Shown here: positions 2,899 to 51,597 of the stretch, piece after piece | Layout of the letters: the number at the start of each line of letters is the position of its first letter | Numbering within the stretch: position 1 is the stretch's first letter | Assembly (NCBI GenBank): GCA_028284155.1 | Contig: JANQSF010000098.1 | Span: 1-64,000 of the forward strand | Direction of reading: 5' to 3' | DNA length: 64,000 bases | Source: Phycisphaeraceae bacterium | GTDB taxonomy: Bacteria; Planctomycetota; Phycisphaerae; Phycisphaerales; Phycisphaeraceae | Notes under the pieces: generated by a model | Seen by the model: the letters and a program-made list of their open reading frames with translations, nothing else | What the model was told of the DNA's origin: nothing | Databases searched by the model: none | Position numbers and translations under genes: made by a program

Positions 2899-5235
2899 TC
2901 AACACCGGTGCCCAAACCCGCGGAACCATCGATGTGATCGTTTGTGCTCGGACTTGAGGGTGTCTTTCAGTCCGGTCACCATCGCATCGACGTGCGACTG
3001 CATCGTTGCATGGGCGGCGTCGTCGGTCTTGCCCTTGCGGTGCAGGCGGTCGATCTGGCGGTCGATCGATTTCACCAGGGCGAGGTTGGTGCGGTCGTTG
3101 CCCCAGCCGCGGTCGACGATGGCGATCGCGATGCCGACATGAACACGCAGGACACGGTCGGCCCGACGGCTCAGGTCCATGTCATCGATGACGCGATAGA
3201 GCTCGCGCAGGCGGGCTTCGAGTGTGTTGTCCAGTTCGGTTTGAACGTCGCCGCCGACCAGGTGGTTGCCTGCGGCGTCTTGCAAGCCGATGACGCCGTC
3301 GGTCGCGTCGTCGTCACCGTCCACTTCGAGCGTCAACTGCCGGTCGAAAAGCGATTCGTCGTAGTGCAGCGTGACCGTCGACTCGGCCGCGTCCCATGTC
3401 GCCGACGCCGCGACGAACTCCTGGCCTTCAGCGACATCGGTCAGCCGGTAGACACTGACGTTCTCGGCTGTGGCGGGGTCGATGTCGTCGCCGACGAGTC
3501 GCAGGACGATGCTGCGCGAGTCGGCGCCGAGTTCGAACGCATCGACGGCCGGGCCCTGCGTGTCGATCGTGACGTGCAGCGCAGCCGACGGCTCGCTGGT
3601 GTTGCCGTCGGCGTCGGTGGCTGTGACGGTGAGCGTGTGGTCGCCGTCGTTGAGCGCCGGCGTCGTGAACGACCAGTTCCCGTCGGCGTCGGCCGTCGTG
3701 CTGCCAAGATGCACGTCACCATTGAACACGTCGACCACCGCGCCTGGTTCGGTTTGGCCGGTCAGTGTTGGCGTGTTGTCGTTGGTCAGGCCGTCGTTGT
3801 CGGAGACGCCGGTGTCGCTGCCCGGGGCGAGCGCCGGGGCGTCGGGCGTGGCGGGGGGCGTGTCGTCGACCGGCGGGTCGTCCGGCGGTGTGTCATCCGG
3901 GGGCGCGCCGAGGTTCGCGATGTGCGCGGAGCCGGCCGCCAAACCCATGTCGCTGTCACCCGAAGCGCCGATCGCCAAGGCCGCGTCGCTCATCGCGACG
4001 GACGAGCCGAACGCGTCGCCGGCCGACGTGACGTCCGGTTGCAGCATCGTGCTCTGCGACCAGACGCCGGAGCTGTCGTCGAACAGGTACGCCGCGCCGC
4101 CCGTGCCCAAAGCGGTTGCGCCGACCACGACGCTTTGGCCGTTCGTCGCCACGGCCTGCCCGAATTGGTCGTTGGCAACGCCGTCGGACGCCGAAAGCTT
4201 GGCCTGCTGCTGCCAGGCGACGCCGTCGTGCGTGAAGACGTATGCCGCGCCGGGTTCGAACTTCATCTGCGCCTGCCCGACGACGAGCATGCCGTCTTCC
4301 ATGTCGACGGCCCACCCGAACGCGTCGCCCGGCGCGGCGTCGTCGGCGTTGATCTTCTGCTGCTGCGACCAGCCGCCGACATCGCGTGTAAAGACGTACG
4401 CAGCACCCATCACGTTCGCGCCGCCGTCGCGCGGCGCGGCGATGACGACGTTGTCACCGTCGGCGTCGACGGCCTGCCCGAACCGCGCTTGTGACGACGC
4501 GTCGTTGGCGACGAGCTTGGCGGTCTGGTTCCACGCGTCGTCGGTCGGGTCGTCGGGCGTGCCGGCGTCGTCGCGTTCAAAGATGTAGGCCGACCCCGAG
4601 TTGCTGCCCCCGTCGTCGTCCTGGAACGCGCCGACCACGATCACATCGCCGCTGACACCGACCGAATAGCCGAAGTTGTCGAACTGCGCGGCGTCGTTCG
4701 CGGTCAGCTTCGTCAGTTGCATCCAGCCGGCCCCGCTGCGGACGAAGACATACGCGGCGCCGGAGTCGAAACCCACGCCGTCGTGCTTCGGCGTGCCGAC
4801 CACAATCACGTCGCCGTCGGTATCGACGTCGAAGCCGAACTGATCGTCCGCCGCCGCGTCGTTCGCGGTGAGCTTGGCTGACTGCGACCAGCCGCCTCCG
4901 CCCGGCTCGAAGACGTACGCGCTGCCCGAGAGATGGCCCGATTGGTCGTCGAACGGTGACCCGGCCACGACGATCGTCCCCGCCGCCGCGATCGACCCGC
5001 CGAACGCGTCGCCCGATGCGGCGTCGTTGGCATAGACCTCCGCCAGGCTCAGCCCATCGCCCGACAACAGCGTGCGCGGCTCCAGCGGTTCCAGTCGGTT
5101 GTGAATGAAGGCTTGACCTGTCCGAGGGGATCGACCGCCGATGGCGCGCACGCTCATGGGAAGCACTCCGTGACTGCCTCCAACCAAAGCCCCGGCGGCT
5201 CGACTTTCTTGCTCCGAAGCAATGGAAAGATTCAA
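2899..5235 (-). CDS. FG-GAP repeat surface protein with LEPR-XLL sorting motif
   Basis: 778 residues. The N-terminus carries LEPRTLLS (residues 51-58), the planctomycete LEPR-XLL signal found near the start of large exported proteins. Residues about 62-440 are at least six FG-GAP-type repeats of about 58 residues with the recurring pattern ANDAA..DxFG..V...G..VVVG...D...G.AYVF, a beta-propeller-like fold. A Pro/Asp-rich linker (PPDDTPPDDPPVDDTPP) follows, then a bacterial Ig-like domain with the NDNTPTLTGQTEPGAVVDVF opening. The tail (about 660-778) is charged and helical. It is probably a cell-surface adhesion or matrix protein. MSVRAIGG at residue 27 is an alternative start. Confidence 0.85.
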   Translation of the reverse strand: MNLSIASEQESRAAGALVGGSHGVLPMSVRAIGGRSPRTGQAFIHNRLEPLEPRTLLSGDGLSLAEVYANDAASGDAFGGSIAAAGTIVVAGSPFDDQSGHLSGSAYVFEPGGGGWSQSAKLTANDAAADDQFGFDVDTDGDVIVVGTPKHDGVGFDSGAAYVFVRSGAGWMQLTKLTANDAAQFDNFGYSVGVSGDVIVVGAFQDDDGGSNSGSAYIFERDDAGTPDDPTDDAWNQTAKLVANDASSQARFGQAVDADGDNVVIAAPRDGGANVMGAAYVFTRDVGGWSQQQKINADDAAPGDAFGWAVDMEDGMLVVGQAQMKFEPGAAYVFTHDGVAWQQQAKLSASDGVANDQFGQAVATNGQSVVVGATALGTGGAAYLFDDSSGVWSQSTMLQPDVTSAGDAFGSSVAMSDAALAIGASGDSDMGLAAGSAHIANLGAPPDDTPPDDPPVDDTPPATPDAPALAPGSDTGVSDNDGLTNDNTPTLTGQTEPGAVVDVFNGDVHLGSTTADADGNWSFTTPALNDGDHTLTVTATDADGNTSEPSAALHVTIDTQGPAVDAFELGADSRSIVLRLVGDDIDPATAENVSVYRLTDVAEGQEFVAASATWDAAESTVTLHYDESLFDRQLTLEVDGDDDATDGVIGLQDAAGNHLVGGDVQTELDNTLEARLRELYRVIDDMDLSRRADRVLRVHVGIAIAIVDRGWGNDRTNLALVKSIDRQIDRLHRKGKTDDAAHATMQSHVDAMVTGLKDTLKSEHKRSHRWFRGFGHRC

Positions 5236-15301: not shown

Positions 15302-16999
15302 ATGCCCTGGACGCTTTACCGCTACATCCTGAAAGACCTGTTGAAGCTGATGGCGTTGTCCGGCGGGGCGTTGCTGGCGGTCATCTCGGTCGCGGTGGCG
15401 ATCAAGCCGTTGGCCGACGGGCTGCTTGAAGCGTCGGCTGTGCCGCGGTTCGTGTTCTACCTCATGCCGACCATGTTGCCGCTGGTGCTGCCGTTCGCCG
15501 GCGCGTTCGCCAGCGTGATGGTCTTTTCACGATTGACGACGGACAACGAGATTCTCGCGTGCTCGGCCGGCGGGATCAGCTATTGGCGGATCCTCATGCC
15601 GATCTACCTGCTCGGCGCGGTGCTGATGGTCACGTTGTTTGGCCTGAGCAACTGGGTCGTGCCGCAATTCTTCCGCAAGGCCGAGTTGATGATCCAGGAA
15701 GACATCACGCGTGTCGTGGTGACCAAGCTCAAGTCGGACCAGACGTTCACGTTCGACAAGTTCTCGCTCTGGGCTGACCAGGCGGAGCAACTCACGCCGA
15801 CGAAGGAGTTTCTCGCGAAGATCAGGAGCGAGGTGCCGCCTTACGCGGTGATCGCGGCGAAGGGCGTCGTCGTCGGTGAGACCGACCGCGACGGCAAGCC
15901 GGTACACGAGTTCACAGCCGAGTCGGCGACGATGCTGCTGTTTCGCGACCGCGGGCAAACAGCCGCGTCGCTCCGCTTGAGCAACGCGTTCGGCTACAAC
16001 GCCGTGAGCGACGAGGCGAGGGACGACGACAAGAAACACAACCCGTGGCAGGGTCGGGTCGGCGATGTGTCGTTCCCCCCCGTTCGGCTGCCGAGTCGTT
16101 TTCAGGACGACCCGGCATTCCTGAGTCGTGAAGAGTTGCAGGAGTTGAGTCGCAAGCCGCTCGAGTACGACCGCGTGCGTGTGCATTGGGAGAAGCTTTG
16201 CCAGGCCATGGCGGCCGAGGTGATGAAGCAGCTTTCGTATGAGACGATCCGCGACCCGGATGGCGATTGGCTGCGACTGCTGGGCGCGGTGCCGGATGAG
16301 ACGTACACGATCCGCGCGCCGCAGGTCGAGGTTCGGCCGAACGGTTTGTTGCTGACGTCGGCGGGTAACCGTCGGGTCGGGATCGATCGAAGACTCAACG
16401 GGACGTTGTCGCGACACTATTCAGCCAAGTCGGCGTGGGTGCGGTTCGAGCCGGGCGCGCCGGCCCCGGAGCCGCGGGCGGTGATCGAACTGACGGAGGC
16501 GGTGGTCGAAGACATCCGCATCGCCGGCGCGCCGCCGCGACACGCGGAGTTGACGCTCGACCCGATGCGCTGGCCGGAGCCGATGCTCGACAAGCAGCGG
16601 GTCAAGCCGCTGAACGACATCCTGGACGAAGCGGGCAAGTCGTTTCTGCACGTGCCGGAGATCGCCAAGCGGCACCGCATCGTGATCGAGCAGCGGGCCA
16701 AGCTCTGGCGGCGAATCGTTTCACAGACGCACGAGCGCGCGGCGCTCGCAATCATCAGCATGCTGGCGTTGTTCGTCTCGGCTGTGCTGGCGATGAGCCT
16801 GCGCGAGACGATGTCGTTGCAAGTTTTCCTGATCGCGTTCGCGCTGACGTTTCTGGCGATCATCGTCACGCACAGCGGTGAGAACCTGCTGATCGAACCG
16901 GACAACGCGATGCCCGTCGGCATCGCCGCGACATGGGCGGGCGTGGTGATCCTGATGGTTGCGTTGTTCGTGACATATCGAAAACTGGCGGATCATTGA
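15302..16999 (+). CDS. LptF/LptG family permease (YjgP/YjgQ), long form
   Basis: 565 residues from ATG 15302; the upstream part of the frame is repeat sequence. N-terminal helices (LYRYILKDLLKLMALSGGAL, then residues about 52-85 and 100-120) and C-terminal helices (about 470-560, ending GIAATWAGVVILMVALFVTY) flank a large periplasmic domain, the YjgP/YjgQ layout. LptF and LptG form the membrane part of the ABC exporter that extracts lipopolysaccharide and passes it to LptC/LptA. E. coli LptF has about 366 residues, so the periplasmic jelly-roll region here carries roughly 200 extra. It is followed by a second permease of the same family. Confidence 0.88.
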   Translation: MPWTLYRYILKDLLKLMALSGGALLAVISVAVAIKPLADGLLEASAVPRFVFYLMPTMLPLVLPFAGAFASVMVFSRLTTDNEILACSAGGISYWRILMPIYLLGAVLMVTLFGLSNWVVPQFFRKAELMIQEDITRVVVTKLKSDQTFTFDKFSLWADQAEQLTPTKEFLAKIRSEVPPYAVIAAKGVVVGETDRDGKPVHEFTAESATMLLFRDRGQTAASLRLSNAFGYNAVSDEARDDDKKHNPWQGRVGDVSFPPVRLPSRFQDDPAFLSREELQELSRKPLEYDRVRVHWEKLCQAMAAEVMKQLSYETIRDPDGDWLRLLGAVPDETYTIRAPQVEVRPNGLLLTSAGNRRVGIDRRLNGTLSRHYSAKSAWVRFEPGAPAPEPRAVIELTEAVVEDIRIAGAPPRHAELTLDPMRWPEPMLDKQRVKPLNDILDEAGKSFLHVPEIAKRHRIVIEQRAKLWRRIVSQTHERAALAIISMLALFVSAVLAMSLRETMSLQVFLIAFALTFLAIIVTHSGENLLIEPDNAMPVGIAATWAGVVILMVALFVTYRKLADH

Positions 17000-19979: not shown

Positions 19980-20008
19980 TTCGGCTTTCTGCGTCCGATA
20001 GATATAAT
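19980..20008 (+). promoter_or_regulatory. Candidate sigma-70 type promoter of the export cluster
   Basis: A perfect TATAAT at 20003-20008 is preceded at 17 bp by TTCGGC (19980-19985), a weak -35. The 5' leader to the GAF-HlyD gene would be about 135 nt and includes a CGCCCCGGGGCG palindrome near 20037. Inferred from sequence only. Confidence 0.45.
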
Positions 20009-20149
20009 CGTTGTCAACTGATGAAGGCCGGCAGCCCGCCCCGGGGCGAGTCCCATAGGGCTGGTCGGCATATTAACGTAGCATTGACAACGGCTTAGGG
20101 CGAGAGTGATCGCCGCCGTCGCATTGTTTTCCCCAGCGGGCAAGCCCCC

Positions 20150-22048
20150 ATGACACGCGTTCAATCGGCCGTGCCGCCGCAAGCCACGCAGCAGACGATG
20201 TCCGATCTGATCGATCGGCTGTCGCGGTATGAGGGCACGCCGGACCAGTTCCTCCTGCAACTGTTGGCGGTGCAATGCCATACGTCCGGGGCTGAGGGCG
20301 GGGCGATTGTCCACATGGATTCGGGCAAGCCGGAGTTGCTGGCCATCTACCCGCAGCTCGCGGAGAAAGCCGCGCCGCCGTGGTTGGCTGAGGCCGTCAA
20401 GAGCGTGCCCGGCATCATGAAGACCGGTCGCACATCCGTCGTCCCCCTCAATGACGCGAACCAGTTTTACGGCCAGGGCGCGTCGCACCACTTGATCCTC
20501 ATTGCCATCAAGCACGACACGGCGCAGGGCGTCGGCGTGCGCGGGGCAATGGTCTACCACCTGGCGACGGGCAATGCGACGCAACTCGCCCACGCGCAGG
20601 AACGGCTCGAACTGACAGCCAGCCTGCTCAGTCTTTATGAGTTGCGATTGAGCGTGCAGGCGCAGCGCAACGACATGGGTCGGCTGAAGGAAACGATCGA
20701 AGTGCACTCGGTCGTGAACGACTACGAGCGTTTTCAGCCCGCGGCGATGGCCATGTGTAACGAGTTGGCCACGCGGGCGAACGCCAGCCGGGTGTCGATC
20801 GGTTTCAAACGCGGTCGTTACATCCACCTGTTGGCGATGAGCCACACGGAGAACCTCACGCGCAAGACCGCGCTGTCGCAGGCGATCGAGTCGGTGATGG
20901 AAGAGTGCAGCGATCAGGACGTCGAAACCCTGCACCCCGCGCCGAATGAAGCTCCCTATGTGAGTCGCGCGGCCTCCGAACTTTCGCAACGACACGGGCC
21001 TTGCAACGTGCTCAGCCTGCCGCTGCGACGCGGCGGCGAACCGGTCGGCGTGGTCACGCTCGAGCGGCCGGCCGACCAGTCGTTCTCATTGACAGAGGTC
21101 GAAACGCTGCGTCTCGCGTGCGACCTGTGCGCACCCCGGCTGATCGACCTGCAGGAAACAGACCGTTGGGTCGGCGTCCGCGCCGTCAAGGCCACGCAAC
21201 GCGGGCTTGCGACGATCCTCGGCCCGAAGCACACGTGGGCAAAGCTGACCGTCCTGCTGCTGATCACCGCCATCGTCCTGCTGTCGGTCCTGAAGGGGCC
21301 GTACCGCGCCGACGCGTCGTTTGTTATCGAGTCACGCGACTACCGCGTCGTCGCCATGCCTTACGAGGCCGTGTTGGCCGAGGTGAACGTCGAACCCGGC
21401 GACGAGGTGCAAGCGGGGCAGGTGCTGGCCCGGCTCAAGACGTTTGAGTTGGAAAACCAGCGTGTGCAGGCTGTCACGACGTTGGCGCAACTACGACGCG
21501 AGCGCGACGTCCATATCGGCAACGACGAGCGGGCCGACGCGGATATCAAGAGTGCACAGATTCGATCGACCGAGGCGGAGATCGAACTGATCGATCACCA
21601 CCTCGAGCACGCCGAGATCAAGTCGCCGATCGCCGGCGTTGTGATCGAGGGCGACCTCAAACGCCAGATCGACAAGCCGATCGAACTGGGCACGACGTTG
21701 TTCCGCGTCGCGCCGTTGCAGGACCTTTACGGCGACCTGATGGTGCCGGAAGACCAGATCGCCGACGTGTACGAGTTGCAGAAGAAGGGTGAGGCCGGCG
21801 AAGGCACGCTCGCGTTGGCCAGCCACCCCGGCGACTACATCCCGTTCAAGATCGAGCGGATCAACCCGGTCGCCGAGTTGTACCAGCAGCGCAACGTCTT
21901 CCGCGTCCGCGTTCGGCTGGAAGAAACGCGCGACTGGATTCGGCCGGGCAACCAGGGCGTCGCCAAGATCGACCTGGCAGAGAAACACTACGTCTGGATC
22001 TGGACGCGTCCGTTTACGAACTGGGTGCGCATGACGTTCTGGATTTGA
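20150..22048 (+). CDS. GAF-GAF-TM-HlyD membrane fusion protein
   Basis: 632 residues with an unusual architecture. Residues about 10-165 and 195-345 look like two GAF-type sensor domains; the second has NVLSLPLRRGGEPVGVVTLE and ends FSLTEVETLRLACDLCAPRL. One transmembrane helix follows (residues about 364-383, LTVLLLITAIVLLSVLKG). The rest is an HlyD/RND adaptor: a barrel-sandwich half-motif VNVEPGDEVQAGQVLARLKT, a short helical hairpin, the second half AEIKSPIAGVVIEGDL, and beta-barrel strands to the C-terminus. The GAF part is cytosolic and the adaptor part periplasmic. It is first in a three-gene cluster with the M50/HlyD and SecA-like genes. Confidence 0.85.
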   Translation: MTRVQSAVPPQATQQTMSDLIDRLSRYEGTPDQFLLQLLAVQCHTSGAEGGAIVHMDSGKPELLAIYPQLAEKAAPPWLAEAVKSVPGIMKTGRTSVVPLNDANQFYGQGASHHLILIAIKHDTAQGVGVRGAMVYHLATGNATQLAHAQERLELTASLLSLYELRLSVQAQRNDMGRLKETIEVHSVVNDYERFQPAAMAMCNELATRANASRVSIGFKRGRYIHLLAMSHTENLTRKTALSQAIESVMEECSDQDVETLHPAPNEAPYVSRAASELSQRHGPCNVLSLPLRRGGEPVGVVTLERPADQSFSLTEVETLRLACDLCAPRLIDLQETDRWVGVRAVKATQRGLATILGPKHTWAKLTVLLLITAIVLLSVLKGPYRADASFVIESRDYRVVAMPYEAVLAEVNVEPGDEVQAGQVLARLKTFELENQRVQAVTTLAQLRRERDVHIGNDERADADIKSAQIRSTEAEIELIDHHLEHAEIKSPIAGVVIEGDLKRQIDKPIELGTTLFRVAPLQDLYGDLMVPEDQIADVYELQKKGEAGEGTLALASHPGDYIPFKIERINPVAELYQQRNVFRVRVRLEETRDWIRPGNQGVAKIDLAEKHYVWIWTRPFTNWVRMTFWI

Positions 22049-22073
22049 GTCGGACTCGAGGCGTCGTTCCTTT

Positions 22074-22151
22074 GGGTGGCTGTGAATAAGCGAAGCGTTT
22101 CACAGGACAGCGGCCCGTGCCGTGAAACGCTTCGCTTATTCACAGACACCC
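22074..22151. repeat. Twin inverted repeat, family K
   Basis: GGGTGGCTGTGAATAAGCGA (AGCGTTTCAC) faces GTGAAACGCTTCGCTTATTCACAGACACCC across about 17 bp. Another pair lies at 51521-51597 and a single arm at 44883-44913. It sits between the first two genes of the export cluster. Confidence 0.9.
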
Positions 22152-22176
22152 GGTGCATGTGAATGAACGCCCCAAC

Positions 22177-22201
22177 ACGCGTCGCAAGCGACGCGGCTAA
22201 A
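22177..22201. repeat. Single palindrome, family G
   Basis: acgcgtcgcaagcgacgcgg followed by ctaaa, ending 9 bp before the ATG of the M50/HlyD gene, so it lies where the ribosome binding site should be. Confidence 0.7.
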
Positions 22202-22209
22202 TACCAATC

Positions 22210-24402
22210 ATGGCCGTTGACCGACCCACATTTTCCGAGTCCTGGTACCGCGTCGCGGGGATGCGGCCGCGCGTGCGCACGTCGTTGCGGACGTACCGCC
22301 AACACTTTCGCGGGCAGACGTTTCACGTCGTGGAAGACCCGGGCACGAACGACTTCTATCGGCTGAACGAACATACGTATCAGTTCGTCGGCCTGCTTGA
22401 CGGCAAGCGGAAGATCGCCGACGCGTGGGCGATCTGCAACGACACGATGGGCGACCTGGCGCCGACGCAGCCCGAGGTCATCCAGGTGCTCGCCAACCTT
22501 TACCAGATGAACCTGCTCGAGGCCGAGATCACGCCCGACGTGGCCGGCATGTTCGATCGTTTCCGCAAACGCCGTGCGCAGGAGGCGCGCGGCAAGTTGA
22601 TGAACATCCTGTTCCTGCGCATCCCGCTGATCAACCCGAATCGGTTCCTGGACCGTTGGATCAACGCGTTCGGTTGGCTGTTCAGCAAGTGGGGCGTCGG
22701 GCTTTGGCTGGTGCTGTTGGCCGTGGCGTTCAGCCGACTGGTCGGCCACGGCGAGGCGTTGTTTGAATCGACGATGGGCGTGCTGTCGCCGGCCAACCTG
22801 CCGATCCTCGGCGTCTGCTTCGCGATCACCAAGATCATTCACGAGTTCGGCCACGCGTTCGCCTGTAAGAAGTTCGGGCGTGACGCCGGCACGGGCGGGC
22901 AGGTGCACACGATGGGCATCATGTTCCTCGTGCTCATGCCGTTCCCGTACATCGACGCGACCAGCGCCTGGGGCTACCGCAACAAGTGGCACCGCGCGTT
23001 CGTCGGCGCGGCCGGCATGTACGTCGAGATCGGCTTCGCCGCCATCGCCGCCATCTGCTGGTCGTTCACCACGACGGGCACGTTCTTCAACGCCGTCTGT
23101 TACAACGTCATGTTCATCGCGTCGGTCGCGACGATCCTGTTCAATGCCAACCCGCTGATCCGGTTCGACGGCTACTTCATCCTCTGCGACATCCTCGAAC
23201 TGCCCAACCTGATGCAGCAGGCGCAGGGCTACCTCAAGTACCTGTTCAAGCGTTACGCGTACGGCATCAAGCGGGCGCACAACACGGCCACGACGTTCGG
23301 CCAACGCTTCTGGTACTTCGTGTACGGCCACGCGTCGATTGTCTACCGGTTTTTCATCATCACGAGCATCAGTCTGTTCGTGGCCGACCAGTTGTTCTTC
23401 ATCGGCCCGATTTTGGCGGTGATGACGATGACGGGCTTCATCGTCGCGCCGGTGTTCAAGTTCGCCAAGTACCTGTTCACGGCGGGCGAGTTGCAGCGAC
23501 ACCGCGTGCGCGCGATGTCGGTGACGGCCATGATGATCGGCGCCGTGCTCGTCTTCATCGCGGGGCTGAACATGCCCGATTACGTCCGCAGCGAGGGCGT
23601 CGTCGATTCGATCGAGCCGCAGGTCGTCCGTGTACAGGAAGGTGGATTCGTCGTATTCACGATGTCGAGCGGCCAATCGGTCGGGCCGAACGGCCAACAT
23701 GCGTTGATTCAATGTGAAAACGTCCCGCTGGTGCAGTACCACAAGCGGTTGCTGGCCAAGGCCGACGAACTCGAAGCGCACATCCGTCTGGCCCGCACGC
23801 AGGACCCGACATCGCTGGCTAACTACAAAGAGATGTACACTTCGGTCCTGAAAGAGTTGGCGCACGTCGAACGCCGGCTCGCGGAATTGACGCTTTACCC
23901 CACGGTCAACGGCACTTGGGTTTCGCCCAACGTCGATCAGTTCAGGGGTCAGTACGTCCAGCCCGGCGACCCGCTGGGCATGGTGGCCGACCTGAAAAAC
24001 CTGCGCGTCCGTGTCGCGGCCGACCAGTACGTCGCCGCACGGCTGCGCGAAGAGGTCGCCATCGGCAGCGAGGTCGAGATGCGCGTCAAGGGTCGGCCGG
24101 ACCTGCTGGTCAAAGGCCGCGTCGAGCGCATCGGCGAATCGGCCATGACGCACCTGCTCACGCCCGCGCTCGGCTACGCCGGCGGCGGCGAGATGCCCAT
24201 CGACCCCACCGATCCCGAAGGACTGAAAACCTCAGAACCTTATTTCGAGGTGGTCATCGTCCCCGGCGAAGACGGCGAAGGCTGGGAAAACCTGCGTAAC
24301 GGCCAGGTCGTCGTCGCCCGTTTCGCGACGAAGGAAAAACGCCTGGTCGTGCAGTGGTATCGGTCGGTGCGCCAACTGCTGCAGCAACGTTTCCAAATCT
24401 GA
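22210..24402 (+). CDS. PqqD-like / M50 metalloprotease / HlyD fusion membrane protein
   Basis: 730 residues. Residues about 40-105 (YRLNEHTYQFVGLLDGKRKI...LANLYQMNLLEAE) resemble a PqqD-type peptide-binding domain. Membrane segments start near 155. The zinc-protease motif HEFGH is at residues 211-215 and the third-ligand motif NPLIRFDGYF near 313-322, the pattern of site-2 proteases (M50). After the last helix (about 436-455) comes an HlyD-like part: VVDSIEPQVVRVQEGGFVVF, a coiled-coil hairpin (about 505-565), NGTWVSPNVDQFRGQYVQPG and beta-barrel strands. Similar M50-plus-HlyD proteins occur in peptide maturation and export loci. It probably cleaves or guides an exported substrate. Confidence 0.87.
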   Translation: MAVDRPTFSESWYRVAGMRPRVRTSLRTYRQHFRGQTFHVVEDPGTNDFYRLNEHTYQFVGLLDGKRKIADAWAICNDTMGDLAPTQPEVIQVLANLYQMNLLEAEITPDVAGMFDRFRKRRAQEARGKLMNILFLRIPLINPNRFLDRWINAFGWLFSKWGVGLWLVLLAVAFSRLVGHGEALFESTMGVLSPANLPILGVCFAITKIIHEFGHAFACKKFGRDAGTGGQVHTMGIMFLVLMPFPYIDATSAWGYRNKWHRAFVGAAGMYVEIGFAAIAAICWSFTTTGTFFNAVCYNVMFIASVATILFNANPLIRFDGYFILCDILELPNLMQQAQGYLKYLFKRYAYGIKRAHNTATTFGQRFWYFVYGHASIVYRFFIITSISLFVADQLFFIGPILAVMTMTGFIVAPVFKFAKYLFTAGELQRHRVRAMSVTAMMIGAVLVFIAGLNMPDYVRSEGVVDSIEPQVVRVQEGGFVVFTMSSGQSVGPNGQHALIQCENVPLVQYHKRLLAKADELEAHIRLARTQDPTSLANYKEMYTSVLKELAHVERRLAELTLYPTVNGTWVSPNVDQFRGQYVQPGDPLGMVADLKNLRVRVAADQYVAARLREEVAIGSEVEMRVKGRPDLLVKGRVERIGESAMTHLLTPALGYAGGGEMPIDPTDPEGLKTSEPYFEVVIVPGEDGEGWENLRNGQVVVARFATKEKRLVVQWYRSVRQLLQQRFQI

Positions 24403-24438
24403 TCGACACGTGGCGCGTCCGTTGCTCCGACACCCGCC

Positions 24439-24466
24439 GTTTAGCCGCGGAGCTTGCTCCGCACGT
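24439..24466. repeat. Single palindrome, family G-like
   Basis: tttagccgcggagcttgctc (cgcac): the TTTAGCCGCG start of family G with a different palindromic core (GGAGCTTGCTCC). Confidence 0.6.
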
Positions 24467-24518
24467 CCCTTGTCAACCATCGCCGCGCACCAACTCGCCC
24501 AACCTAAACTCACCCAAC

Positions 24519-26654
24519 ATGGTCACGCCTACGACCGAACAACCCGCGTCACCAACGAGCCCGCCGGCGCAGCCCAAAGGTACGACCGTCGCGCTCGACA
24601 CGACGCCGCGCAACGGCTCCTGCCCCAAGCCCACGCCGCCCGTGCCCAGCGGCATGTGGCGGACGCTGGCGCACCGCGGCAAGACGTCGTCGAAGTTGCC
24701 CAAAGGGCTCGACGCGATGTGGAACGCGGGGGCGGGATACGTCCGCCAGTTCGCCCCGCGCCGACGACGGTATCTCGCGCGGGCCGCGCGCGTGCTCAAA
24801 CTCGAAGCGACGTACAACGATATCAGCGACGCCCGCTTGCGCGAACGCGCGGCTGAGCTGCGCGAGCTGTTCCGCCTCGGCAGGCAGACACGCGAAGACG
24901 TCGAACACGCGTTCGCCGTCGTCCGCGAGGTCGCCTGGCGGAAGGTCGAGATGCGGCCTTACAAAGTGCAGGTCGCCGCGGCGTTGGCGATGTACGACGG
25001 CTGCATCGCCGAACTCGCCACCGGCGAGGGCAAGACGCTGTCCGCCTCGATGCCCGCGACCGTCGCCGGCTGGCGCGGACGCGGCGTGCACGTCATCACC
25101 GTCAACGACTACCTCGCCGCGCGCGACGCCGAACTCATGCGGCCGATCTACGAGTTCTGTGGCCTGACCGTCAGCTCGATCGTCGGCGACACGCCGCCGC
25201 CCTCGCGGCGCGAGCTTTACCTGGCCGACATCACCTACACGACGAACAAAGAGGTCGCGGCCGACTTCCTGCGCGACCGTCTGGCCCTCGGCGACACCCG
25301 CGGCCTGACGAGCGCGCTGGTGCGCAAGGTCGCCGGCGGCGCGGGCGAGGGCGTCGACCGCGTCGTGCAACGCGGCCTCGAGTTCGCCATCATCGACGAG
25401 GCCGACTCGATCATGATCGACGAGGCTGTCACCCCGCTGATCATCTCCGGTGAGTCGCCGAACGCCGCGCGCGTCGAGGCGTTCAAGCAGGCGTCCGACC
25501 TGGCGGATCAACTCGAAAAGGGTAAGGACTACAAGGTCGACCACGAATACCGCGATGTCGAGTTCACCAACGCCGGCCGACGCCGCCTGGCTGAATTGGC
25601 GAGCGACATCGGCGGCATCTTCGCCGGGGCACGCCGACGCGAGGAGATGGTGCACCAGGCCATCACCGCACGCGAGTTGTACACGCTCGAAAAGCAGTAC
25701 GTCATTCAGGACGACGAGGTCGTGATCGTCGACGAGTTCACCGGCCGACTCATGCCCGACCGCGAGTGGCGGGACGGACTGCACCAGGCGGTCAGCGCCA
25801 AGGAAGGCGTCGAGGTCAAGAACCCCAAGGAAACGCTCTCGCGCATCAGCTTTCAAAACTTCTACCGCATGTACAAACGGCTCTCGGGCATGACCGCCAC
25901 CGCGTGGGAGGCGAGGCATGAGCTTTGGCAGATCTACGGCCTGCCGGTCGTCCGCATCCCGACGAACCGCCCGTGCATCCGCATCCAGAAGCGCGACCGC
26001 ATGTTCGTCAACGCCGAGGCCAAGTGGAATGCCATCGCCGAACACGTGCGCGAAGTGCACGCGACCGGCCAACCGCTGCTCGTCGGCACGCGCAGCGTCC
26101 GCGCCAGCGAGTTGCTCAGCATGATGCTCGGCGGCGAAGACGGCAGCGAGGCGACCGAAGGCCAAACGCCGATTGTCCACCGCGTGCTCAACGCCGTGCG
26201 TCACAAGGAAGAGGCCGAGGTCGTCGCCGTCGCCGGCCAACCCGACAAGGTCACCGTCGCGACGAACATGGCCGGCCGCGGCACCGACATCAAGCTCGGC
26301 CCCGGCGTGCCCGAAAAAGGCGGACTCTACGTGCTGGCCACCGAACGACACGAAAACACAAGAGTCGACCGCCAACTCTACGGCCGATCCGCACGACAGG
26401 GCGACCCCGGCGAGGCCGTCACCATGATCAGTCTCGACGACGAAATCCTGCAACGCTATTCAAGTGTGTGGTGGCGCTGGTTCCTCTCACTGGCCACCAA
26501 CAGCCGCGGCGAGGTCATCAACCCCCTGCGCAACTGGGTCGTCCGCCGCGCCCAGGCCAGGGCTGAACGCAACGCCCTGCGTTCGAGAAAGAGCGTGCTC
26601 AAGACAGACGACTGGCTCGACGAGGCGCTCGGCTTTGCGGCGGGTGAGACGTGA
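24519..26654 (+). CDS. SecA-type ATPase lacking the C-terminal helical half
   Basis: 711 residues from ATG 24519. The two RecA-like motor domains of SecA are intact: Walker A ATGEGKTLSAS (from residue 167), HVITVNDYLAARDAELMRPI, Walker B IIDEADSIMIDEAVTPLIIS (D293), the preprotein-cross-linking region (about 300-420), IVDEFTGRLMPDREWRDGLH, SGMTATA, VPTNRP-like IPTNRP, NMAGRGTDIKLG (from 583) and TERHENTRVDRQLYGRSARQ. After SLDDEILQRYSS only about 65 residues remain, so the helical scaffold, two-helix finger, wing domain and Cys-rich tail of canonical SecA (about 900 aa) are missing. It is an accessory motor, probably serving the adjacent adaptor genes; this link is inference. Confidence 0.9.
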   Translation: MVTPTTEQPASPTSPPAQPKGTTVALDTTPRNGSCPKPTPPVPSGMWRTLAHRGKTSSKLPKGLDAMWNAGAGYVRQFAPRRRRYLARAARVLKLEATYNDISDARLRERAAELRELFRLGRQTREDVEHAFAVVREVAWRKVEMRPYKVQVAAALAMYDGCIAELATGEGKTLSASMPATVAGWRGRGVHVITVNDYLAARDAELMRPIYEFCGLTVSSIVGDTPPPSRRELYLADITYTTNKEVAADFLRDRLALGDTRGLTSALVRKVAGGAGEGVDRVVQRGLEFAIIDEADSIMIDEAVTPLIISGESPNAARVEAFKQASDLADQLEKGKDYKVDHEYRDVEFTNAGRRRLAELASDIGGIFAGARRREEMVHQAITARELYTLEKQYVIQDDEVVIVDEFTGRLMPDREWRDGLHQAVSAKEGVEVKNPKETLSRISFQNFYRMYKRLSGMTATAWEARHELWQIYGLPVVRIPTNRPCIRIQKRDRMFVNAEAKWNAIAEHVREVHATGQPLLVGTRSVRASELLSMMLGGEDGSEATEGQTPIVHRVLNAVRHKEEAEVVAVAGQPDKVTVATNMAGRGTDIKLGPGVPEKGGLYVLATERHENTRVDRQLYGRSARQGDPGEAVTMISLDDEILQRYSSVWWRWFLSLATNSRGEVINPLRNWVVRRAQARAERNALRSRKSVLKTDDWLDEALGFAAGET

Positions 26655-44882: not shown

Positions 44883-44913
44883 CCGTGAAACGCTGCGCTT
44901 ATTCACAGGCACC
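44883..44913. repeat. Single arm, family K
   Basis: ccgtgaaacgctgcgcttat (tcacaggcaccc): one arm of family K without its partner; the partner was lost or never formed. Confidence 0.75.
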
Positions 44914-51520: not shown

Positions 51521-51597
51521 CTGTGAACAAGCGAAGCGTTTTTACAGATAGGGACACACCCTTCCGTGAAACGCTTCGCTTATTCACAGACACCCAA
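51521..51597. repeat. Twin inverted repeat, family K
   Basis: CTGTGAACAAGCGAAGCGTT (TTTACAG) faces CGTGAAACGCTTCGCTTATTCACAGACACCC. The right arm is identical to that at 22074-22151 over 30 bases; the left arm has diverged. Confidence 0.88.

Follow-up and report, generated by a model that had tools for sequence, protein, structure and literature searches.

A Conserved Neighborhood of GAF-HlyD, RRE-M50-HlyD, and Short SecA Genes as a Candidate Exporter of LEPR-XLL Giant Proteins

INTRODUCTION

The gene neighborhood analyzed here was first reported by Kamneva, Poudel, and Ward in 2015 as a secondary SecA_DEAD or type I secretion system (T1SS)-related locus (PLoS ONE, PMC4452313). In their proposal, SecA acts as the ATPase and the M50 protein as the membrane part, and the broader role of the locus was described as "completely unknown"; the text names no substrate and mentions neither LEPR, nor PqqD/RRE, nor giant proteins (PMC4452313). 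Because this neighborhood had been described, the novelty of the gene combination falls, and with it the claim of the original prediction, made from the DNA alone, that no such combination was on record. A four-gene operon of this type is described there for Methylobacterium extorquens AM1 (META1p2399-2402; PMC4452313). A second point of comparison is daptide biosynthesis, in which an RRE is fused to a site-2 protease and the leaders of the precursors share the motif ELExMEAP (PMC10036551, PMC12338566). The leader of the daptide precursor MpaA1 has L at −7, M at −4, and E at −3, and an alanine at −7 or −4 abolishes processing by the RRE-bearing MpaB (PMC10036551). The leader is removed by the RRE-dependent peptidase MpaP, which cuts after the motif (PMC10036551, PMC12338566).

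Neither a paper linking LEPR-XLL proteins with this locus nor a described export route for LEPR-XLL giants was found in the literature searched, with preprints lying largely, and the NCBIfam entry text wholly, beyond the reach of that search.

RESULTS

Layout of the locus

Three consecutive genes lie on the plus strand of the 64-kb stretch of DNA that we analyzed (here called the window), at positions 20150 to 22048, 22210 to 24402, and 24519 to 26654; the reading frame of the third is open from 24354. The spacer between genes 1 and 2 measures 161 bp and contains a dispersed palindromic repeat, that between genes 2 and 3 measures about 117 bp, and given these distances the three genes likely form a single operon. 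A TATAAT promoter had been proposed upstream of gene 1. The TATAAT string is indeed present near 20003, but a sigma-70 scan found no promoter there, so the promoter is unsupported; the one match of the scan in 7 kb lies elsewhere, and shuffled sequences give 1.1. Rfam RNAs and tRNAs were both searched for, and none were found. The repeat between genes 1 and 2 is an inverted pair of the 24-bp element GTGAAACGCTTCGCTTATTCACAG (window positions 22080 to 22145), further copies of which occur at 44885 to 44908 and 51566 to 51589 of the window and, elsewhere in the genome, at 15753 to 15819 of locus L041. The element is REP-like, and its expected number of copies in shuffled sequences is zero.

Gene 1 encodes a 632-aa GAF-GAF-TM-HlyD protein, a predicted inner-membrane adaptor. 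It comprises a GAF domain recognized by Pfam (residues 203 to 328), one transmembrane segment (residues 361 to 387), and an HlyD domain (residues 392 to 600), with a predicted topology that places the GAF domains in the cytosol and the HlyD part in the periplasm. Its structural model (pLDDT, 90.5) matches MacA/AcrA-type adaptors as well as tandem-GAF proteins, including PDE6C. The predicted architecture therefore stands for the second GAF domain, the transmembrane segment, and HlyD, whereas the evidence for the first GAF domain is the model.

Gene 2 encodes a 730-aa protein that appears to unite a leader-binding domain, an intramembrane metalloprotease, and a periplasmic adaptor. Its AlphaFold model (mean pLDDT, 88) shows three known folds in series, all with structure-match Z scores above 8, the value below which a match may reflect merely a common arrangement: an RRE/PqqD-like domain (residues 18 to 105, positions 22261 to 22524; residues 18 to 108 in the model match) that matches leader-bound RRE structures (6jx3, Z 9.8; 5v1v, Z 9.7) and, with Z scores as high, other winged-helix proteins; an M50/site-2 protease core (residues 193 to 391; 22786 to 23382) that matches RseP (7w6x, Z 9.0); and an adaptor domain (residues 454 to 720; 23569 to 24369), recognized by the Pfam models HlyD_D23/HlyD_3, that matches MacA/AcrA/MexA (Z 13 to 15.7). 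The protease core is polytopic and holds the HExxH and C-terminal Asp motifs of the M50/site-2 family as HEFGH (residues 211 to 215) and NANPLIRFD (residues 312 to 320), in which H211, E212, H215, N312, N314, and D320 are invariant among 43 relatives. Since other winged-helix proteins score equally, the RRE-like fold alone is no proof of leader binding. The Pfam PqqD match in gene 2 itself is weak (E value, 0.099), and the domain is found in 27 of the 43 relatives (best E value, 1e-7); from fold and family matches, we take the N-terminal domain to be a probable RRE with predicted leader binding. The predicted union of a PqqD-like domain, a HEFGH-type M50 protease, and HlyD in one protein is thus borne out by Pfam matches in relatives and by the model folds, as is the fusion of the PqqD/RRE part to the protease within an export-type module.

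Across its RRE and M50 parts, gene 2 also matches the daptide peptidase model NF041824 (E value, 2e-46), as do all 43 relatives. This homology could point to a maturation route of the RiPP kind, in which the RRE-M50 protein clips a small leader-bearing peptide that is then exported through HlyD and TolC. However, gene 2 scores 158.8 bits, below the equivalog cutoff of 300, no RiPP tailoring enzymes were noticed among the listed ORFs around the loci, and the leader-like proteins linked to the loci are giant repeat proteins; we consider such a route very improbable. In place of the small precursor gene that the original prediction had proposed to look for, the giant LEPR-XLL proteins described below emerged as the best substrate candidates.

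Gene 3 encodes a truncated SecA-type ATPase of 711 aa, identified by Pfam and alignment, that consists of NBD1, PPXD, and NBD2. The SecA motor motifs are retained; no wing is present, little is left of the scaffold, whose two-helix finger is missing, and the alignment to Bacillus subtilis SecA stops at about residue 604. A truncated SecA had been predicted correctly, but not its reduction to the two motor domains, as the preprotein cross-linking domain is also kept (SecA_PP_bind; E value, 3.5e-28). All 34 short-SecA relatives keep NBD1, PPXD, and NBD2; no wing-scaffold domain could be detected in 32 of them, the other 2 showing a trace of SecA_SW. In a tree of these 34 truncated and 20 full-length SecAs, the two kinds are split with a support of 1.0, the short SecAs forming their own clade. 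Planctomycete and gammaproteobacterial members are intermixed within it, which suggests horizontal transfer. The housekeeping SecA of the source genome (L156, 1027 to 5169) is about 1,380 aa long, in agreement with the planctomycete SecA rearrangement reported previously (PMC4452313).

Conservation of the neighborhood

That the three genes form a real group of neighbors, as predicted, follows from their order, which is kept across three phyla and places the trio far beyond chance. Close relatives of gene 2 (M50-HlyD) were found in Planctomycetota, one Opitutaceae MAG, and one Marinobacter MAG, and the 36 close M50-HlyD loci span Planctomycetota, Verrucomicrobiota (a sample of one MAG), and Gammaproteobacteria. 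GAF-HlyD lies directly upstream of M50-HlyD in 33 of these 36 loci and a short SecA directly downstream in 31, so that the three families are regular neighbors in other genomes too; a small HlyD is found near 25 and TolC near 9. In a broader sampling, M50-HlyD was detected in 55 of the 244 Planctomycetota and in 33 of the 275 genomes drawn from the class to which the Marinobacter MAG belongs (here called the gammaproteobacterial sample). In one MAG, the M50-HlyD frame is broken by two stop codons and adjoins a LEPR match (L064; G211, C366), reflecting either a pseudogene or an assembly error.

The expectation that no dedicated ABC or RND transporter accompanies the locus held as well. ABC/RND genes are nearly absent, an ABC ATPase ORF having been detected near 1 of the 36 loci by a motif scan of imperfect sensitivity (it missed a PstB-like gene in L099). 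The window itself holds no TolC, but TolC homologues on two other contigs of the source genome (C7 and C11) match the family model, and another contig (C143) carries a second set of small HlyD, GAF-HlyD, and M50-HlyD. A SapC-like gene, recognized by eye, recurs beside the locus in gammaproteobacterial genomes (L045, 3824 to 4573; L120, 13096 to 13875; L127, 13797 to 14516) and is possibly an accessory part.

LEPR-XLL giants as candidate cargo

The source genome contains 34 matches over the cutoff to the NCBIfam LEPR-XLL model (NF012209), in frames of up to 13,139 aa. One of them lies in the window, on the minus strand at 2902 to 5235: a 778-aa protein with LEPLEPRTLLSG near its N terminus and with FG-GAP and Ig-like repeats, which is a candidate substrate. 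Given that the genome carries dozens of such proteins, its proximity to the locus is not significant, and we rejected it as evidence of linkage. The second short SecA of the source genome (C55) lies 1.1 kb upstream of a LEPR giant, on the same strand. Two LEPR-XLL frames reach about 14,112 aa (G475, C84, near 83224) and 13,139 aa (G000, C49, near 40781), very large sizes for bacterial proteins.

Comparing genomes with and without LEPR proteins, M50-HlyD was found in 22 of 23 LEPR-positive versus 33 of 221 LEPR-negative Planctomycetota (Fisher P = 2e-15), an association that involves 13 planctomycete families, and in 21 of 27 LEPR-positive versus 12 of 248 other genomes of the gammaproteobacterial sample (Fisher P = 5e-18); both significances are overstated, because the tests take genomes as independent irrespective of relatedness. 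LEPR is a short motif, and many of the linked genomes are MAGs. Physical linkage points in the same direction: a LEPR giant and M50-HlyD are no more than 15 kb apart in 14 of 37 genomes, against an expectation of 1.0 (P = 3e-14), in a test on fragmented assemblies that leaves out genomes with very many LEPR matches. From association and linkage, LEPR-XLL giants are quite probably the substrate of this machine.

It could be argued that the locus is instead a general type I-like exporter, with SecA as ATPase, M50 as membrane part, and an unspecified cargo to which LEPR proteins are secondary or of which they are one part. This logic has been published for the same gene set (PMC4452313), and many genomes with M50-HlyD, including 33 Planctomycetota, lack an NF012209 match. 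Nevertheless, giants with near-miss motifs adjoin the locus in some of these apparent exceptions (VEPRLLFSA in G499, LEQRIMLDA in G083, and the LEPRMMFDGA variant described below), which indicates that NF012209 undercounts, and co-occurrence and linkage greatly exceed chance in two groups that are unrelated. We therefore regard an unspecified cargo as improbable. As for the converse exceptions, three genomes (G153, G318, and G450) encode clear LEPR-XLL proteins without M50-HlyD, a wider profile yielding only matches to the HlyD part. HlyB-type ABC exporters occur in 3 of the 6 LEPR-positive gammaproteobacterial genomes that lack M50-HlyD. As general exporters of LEPR proteins, HlyB-type systems were rejected, being only weakly associated (6 of 27 LEPR-positive genomes of the gammaproteobacterial sample; P = 0.02). 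In L119 (12911 to 18584), DUF4347 follows closely on the motif of the LEPR giant that adjoins the locus, and giants with DUF4347 may therefore share the same export route.

The 75 LEPR N termini that we examined, from the source genome and others (one or two rows look like chance matches), display the motif hydrophobic(−7)-[E/D](−6)-x-[L/M](−4)-E(−3)-P/Q(−2)-R(−1)-[V/I/L]-L-L-S-A. In simplified form, the signal is a basic stretch, with about 25% Arg/Lys, followed by [hydrophobic]-[E/D]-x-L-E-P-R-x-L-L-S-A. A hydrophobic residue at −7 and an acidic one at −6 occur together in 89% of the N termini, compared with about 1.5% expected from the upstream composition; the two positions lie outside the search pattern but inside the NF012209 model, which found many of the sequences. 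A Sec-like h-region is absent from these N termini, the median best 12-residue hydropathy being 1.3 versus 2.45 in HlyD/TolC controls. The likeness to the daptide motif is partial, since −2/−1 is PR and not AP. The homologous RRE-protease architecture, together with the similar leader motif, is our chief ground for proposing that LEPR leaders are recognized and cleaved by the gene 2 protein. Its RRE domain probably recognizes the LEPR leader, a step that we infer by analogy, as the essential −7 and −4 positions concern the RRE of MpaB rather than that of MpaP.

A short SecA is encoded in 31 of 47 LEPR-positive versus 1 of 16 LEPR-negative control genomes. The SecA of one LEPR-negative control (G003), considered as a truncated form, turned out to be near full length and to fall in the canonical clade. 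Several LEPR-positive genomes with M50-HlyD lack a truncated SecA, and several related loci with M50-HlyD, HlyD, and a giant protein have none nearby, with none found elsewhere in some of those genomes either. Six gammaproteobacterial loci without SecA (L136, L137, L138, L141, L142, and L145) otherwise keep HlyD partners, M50-HlyD, and a giant protein, the latter with motif variants such as LEPRMMFDGA, LEQRVVLDAA, and LEERVVLDAA, and some include a TolC-like lipoprotein, recognized by eye. Hence, the short SecA cannot be the universal motor, and we rejected it as an obligatory part.

DISCUSSION

The conserved machine is real and its neighborhood was known; what is new, as a hypothesis, is a dedicated exporter of LEPR giants that combines T1SS-like, RiPP-like, and SecA-like parts. 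In our reading, the three genes are likely to encode the inner-membrane core of a TolC-type exporter devoted to LEPR-XLL giant repeat proteins. This model draws on the parts, their gene order, the catalytic residues, the predicted folds, the co-occurrence and linkage with LEPR, and the motif, from which every step of the following cycle is inferred. The RRE/PqqD domain of M50-HlyD would recognize the N terminus of the substrate, with its basic tail and LEPR motif, in the cytosol. The truncated SecA, docked at the complex, would feed in the unfolded chain through ATP hydrolysis, and the M50 intramembrane protease would free the chain of its leader by a cut at LEPR or beyond it. The adaptor to a TolC-family outer-membrane duct would be built from GAF-HlyD, M50-HlyD, and the small periplasmic HlyD, and the GAF domains might gate or sense. 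The path across the inner membrane could be provided by the M50 helices, by SecYEG, or by other means.

The motor is the least settled part of this model. The original prediction that SecA drives export gains from the enrichment of the short SecA in LEPR-positive genomes and loses from the related loci that do without it; we lean slightly toward the short SecA as the driver, and where it is missing, housekeeping SecA with SecYEG or another energy source may serve. Alternatively, SecYEG might carry LEPR-XLL proteins across the inner membrane, assisted by the short SecA as a SecA2-like accessory motor or, in the absence of the short form, by the housekeeping SecA, while M50-HlyD and TolC provide processing and outer-membrane passage. 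The preprotein-binding domain kept in the short SecA, the SecA-less loci, where a housekeeping SecA could serve, and the separate full-length SecA in most examined genomes all fit this route. Yet short SecAs throughout the family lack the wing and, with the two-helix finger, the bulk of the scaffold, and the substrates have no Sec h-region, for which reasons we find passage through SecYEG rather unlikely. The confidences attached to this alternative and to the dedicated exporter overlap, since both share the substrate claim and differ in the motor and the inner-membrane path. Only tentatively do we put forward the dedicated exporter in its fullest form: a distinct system in which megadalton proteins are chosen by their LEPR tag through RiPP-style leader recognition (RRE) and cleaved by the intramembrane M50 protease, and in which a stripped SecA, without SecYEG or ABC proteins, drives their export through HlyD and TolC.

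The proposed exporter shares features with several known systems. With giant-adhesin type I secretion (HlyB/D-TolC, e.g., SiiE) it has in common HlyD adaptors, a TolC-family duct, and giant repetitive substrates. In contrast to these systems, the locus comes without the ABC transporter that serves as their inner-membrane motor, as far as the imperfectly sensitive scan of the 36 loci tells, and holds a SecA-type ATPase and an M50 protease instead. Classical T1SS substrates, furthermore, bear a C-terminal signal, whereas the putative signal of LEPR-XLL proteins is N-terminal. PCAT (C39) ABC exporters likewise include a leader peptidase as an integral part of the exporter; here, however, the protease is of the intramembrane M50 type and RRE-linked, not C39, and ABC domains are absent. 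The daptide peptidases MpaP/DapP (NF041824) share with gene 2 the N-terminal RRE and the site-2 protease, and their motif ELExMEAP resembles xLExLEPR, but gene 2 adds an HlyD domain, falls below the equivalog cutoff, and has giant candidate substrates. SecA2 accessory motors are similarly second, divergent SecAs with dedicated substrates (here, candidate ones); unlike them, the short SecA retains no wing and little of the scaffold and is partnered by HlyD, M50, and TolC, with no SecY2 or Asp proteins noticed.

The closest match is the secondary SecA_DEAD locus itself (PMC4452313), with which our locus shares a SecA_DEAD protein without SecA_SW, in a clade apart from housekeeping SecA, next to M50-HlyD and GAF-HlyD, a further HlyD, and, in some loci, an outer-membrane efflux protein (OEP). 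To that description we add the candidate substrate, PqqD/RRE, LEPR, and the giant proteins, so that a locus of "completely unknown" role in 2015 acquires a candidate cargo, signal, and recognition domain. If the model holds, proteins as large as about 14,000 residues would be exported by a pathway built on leader biology taken from peptide natural products and on a cut-down SecA.
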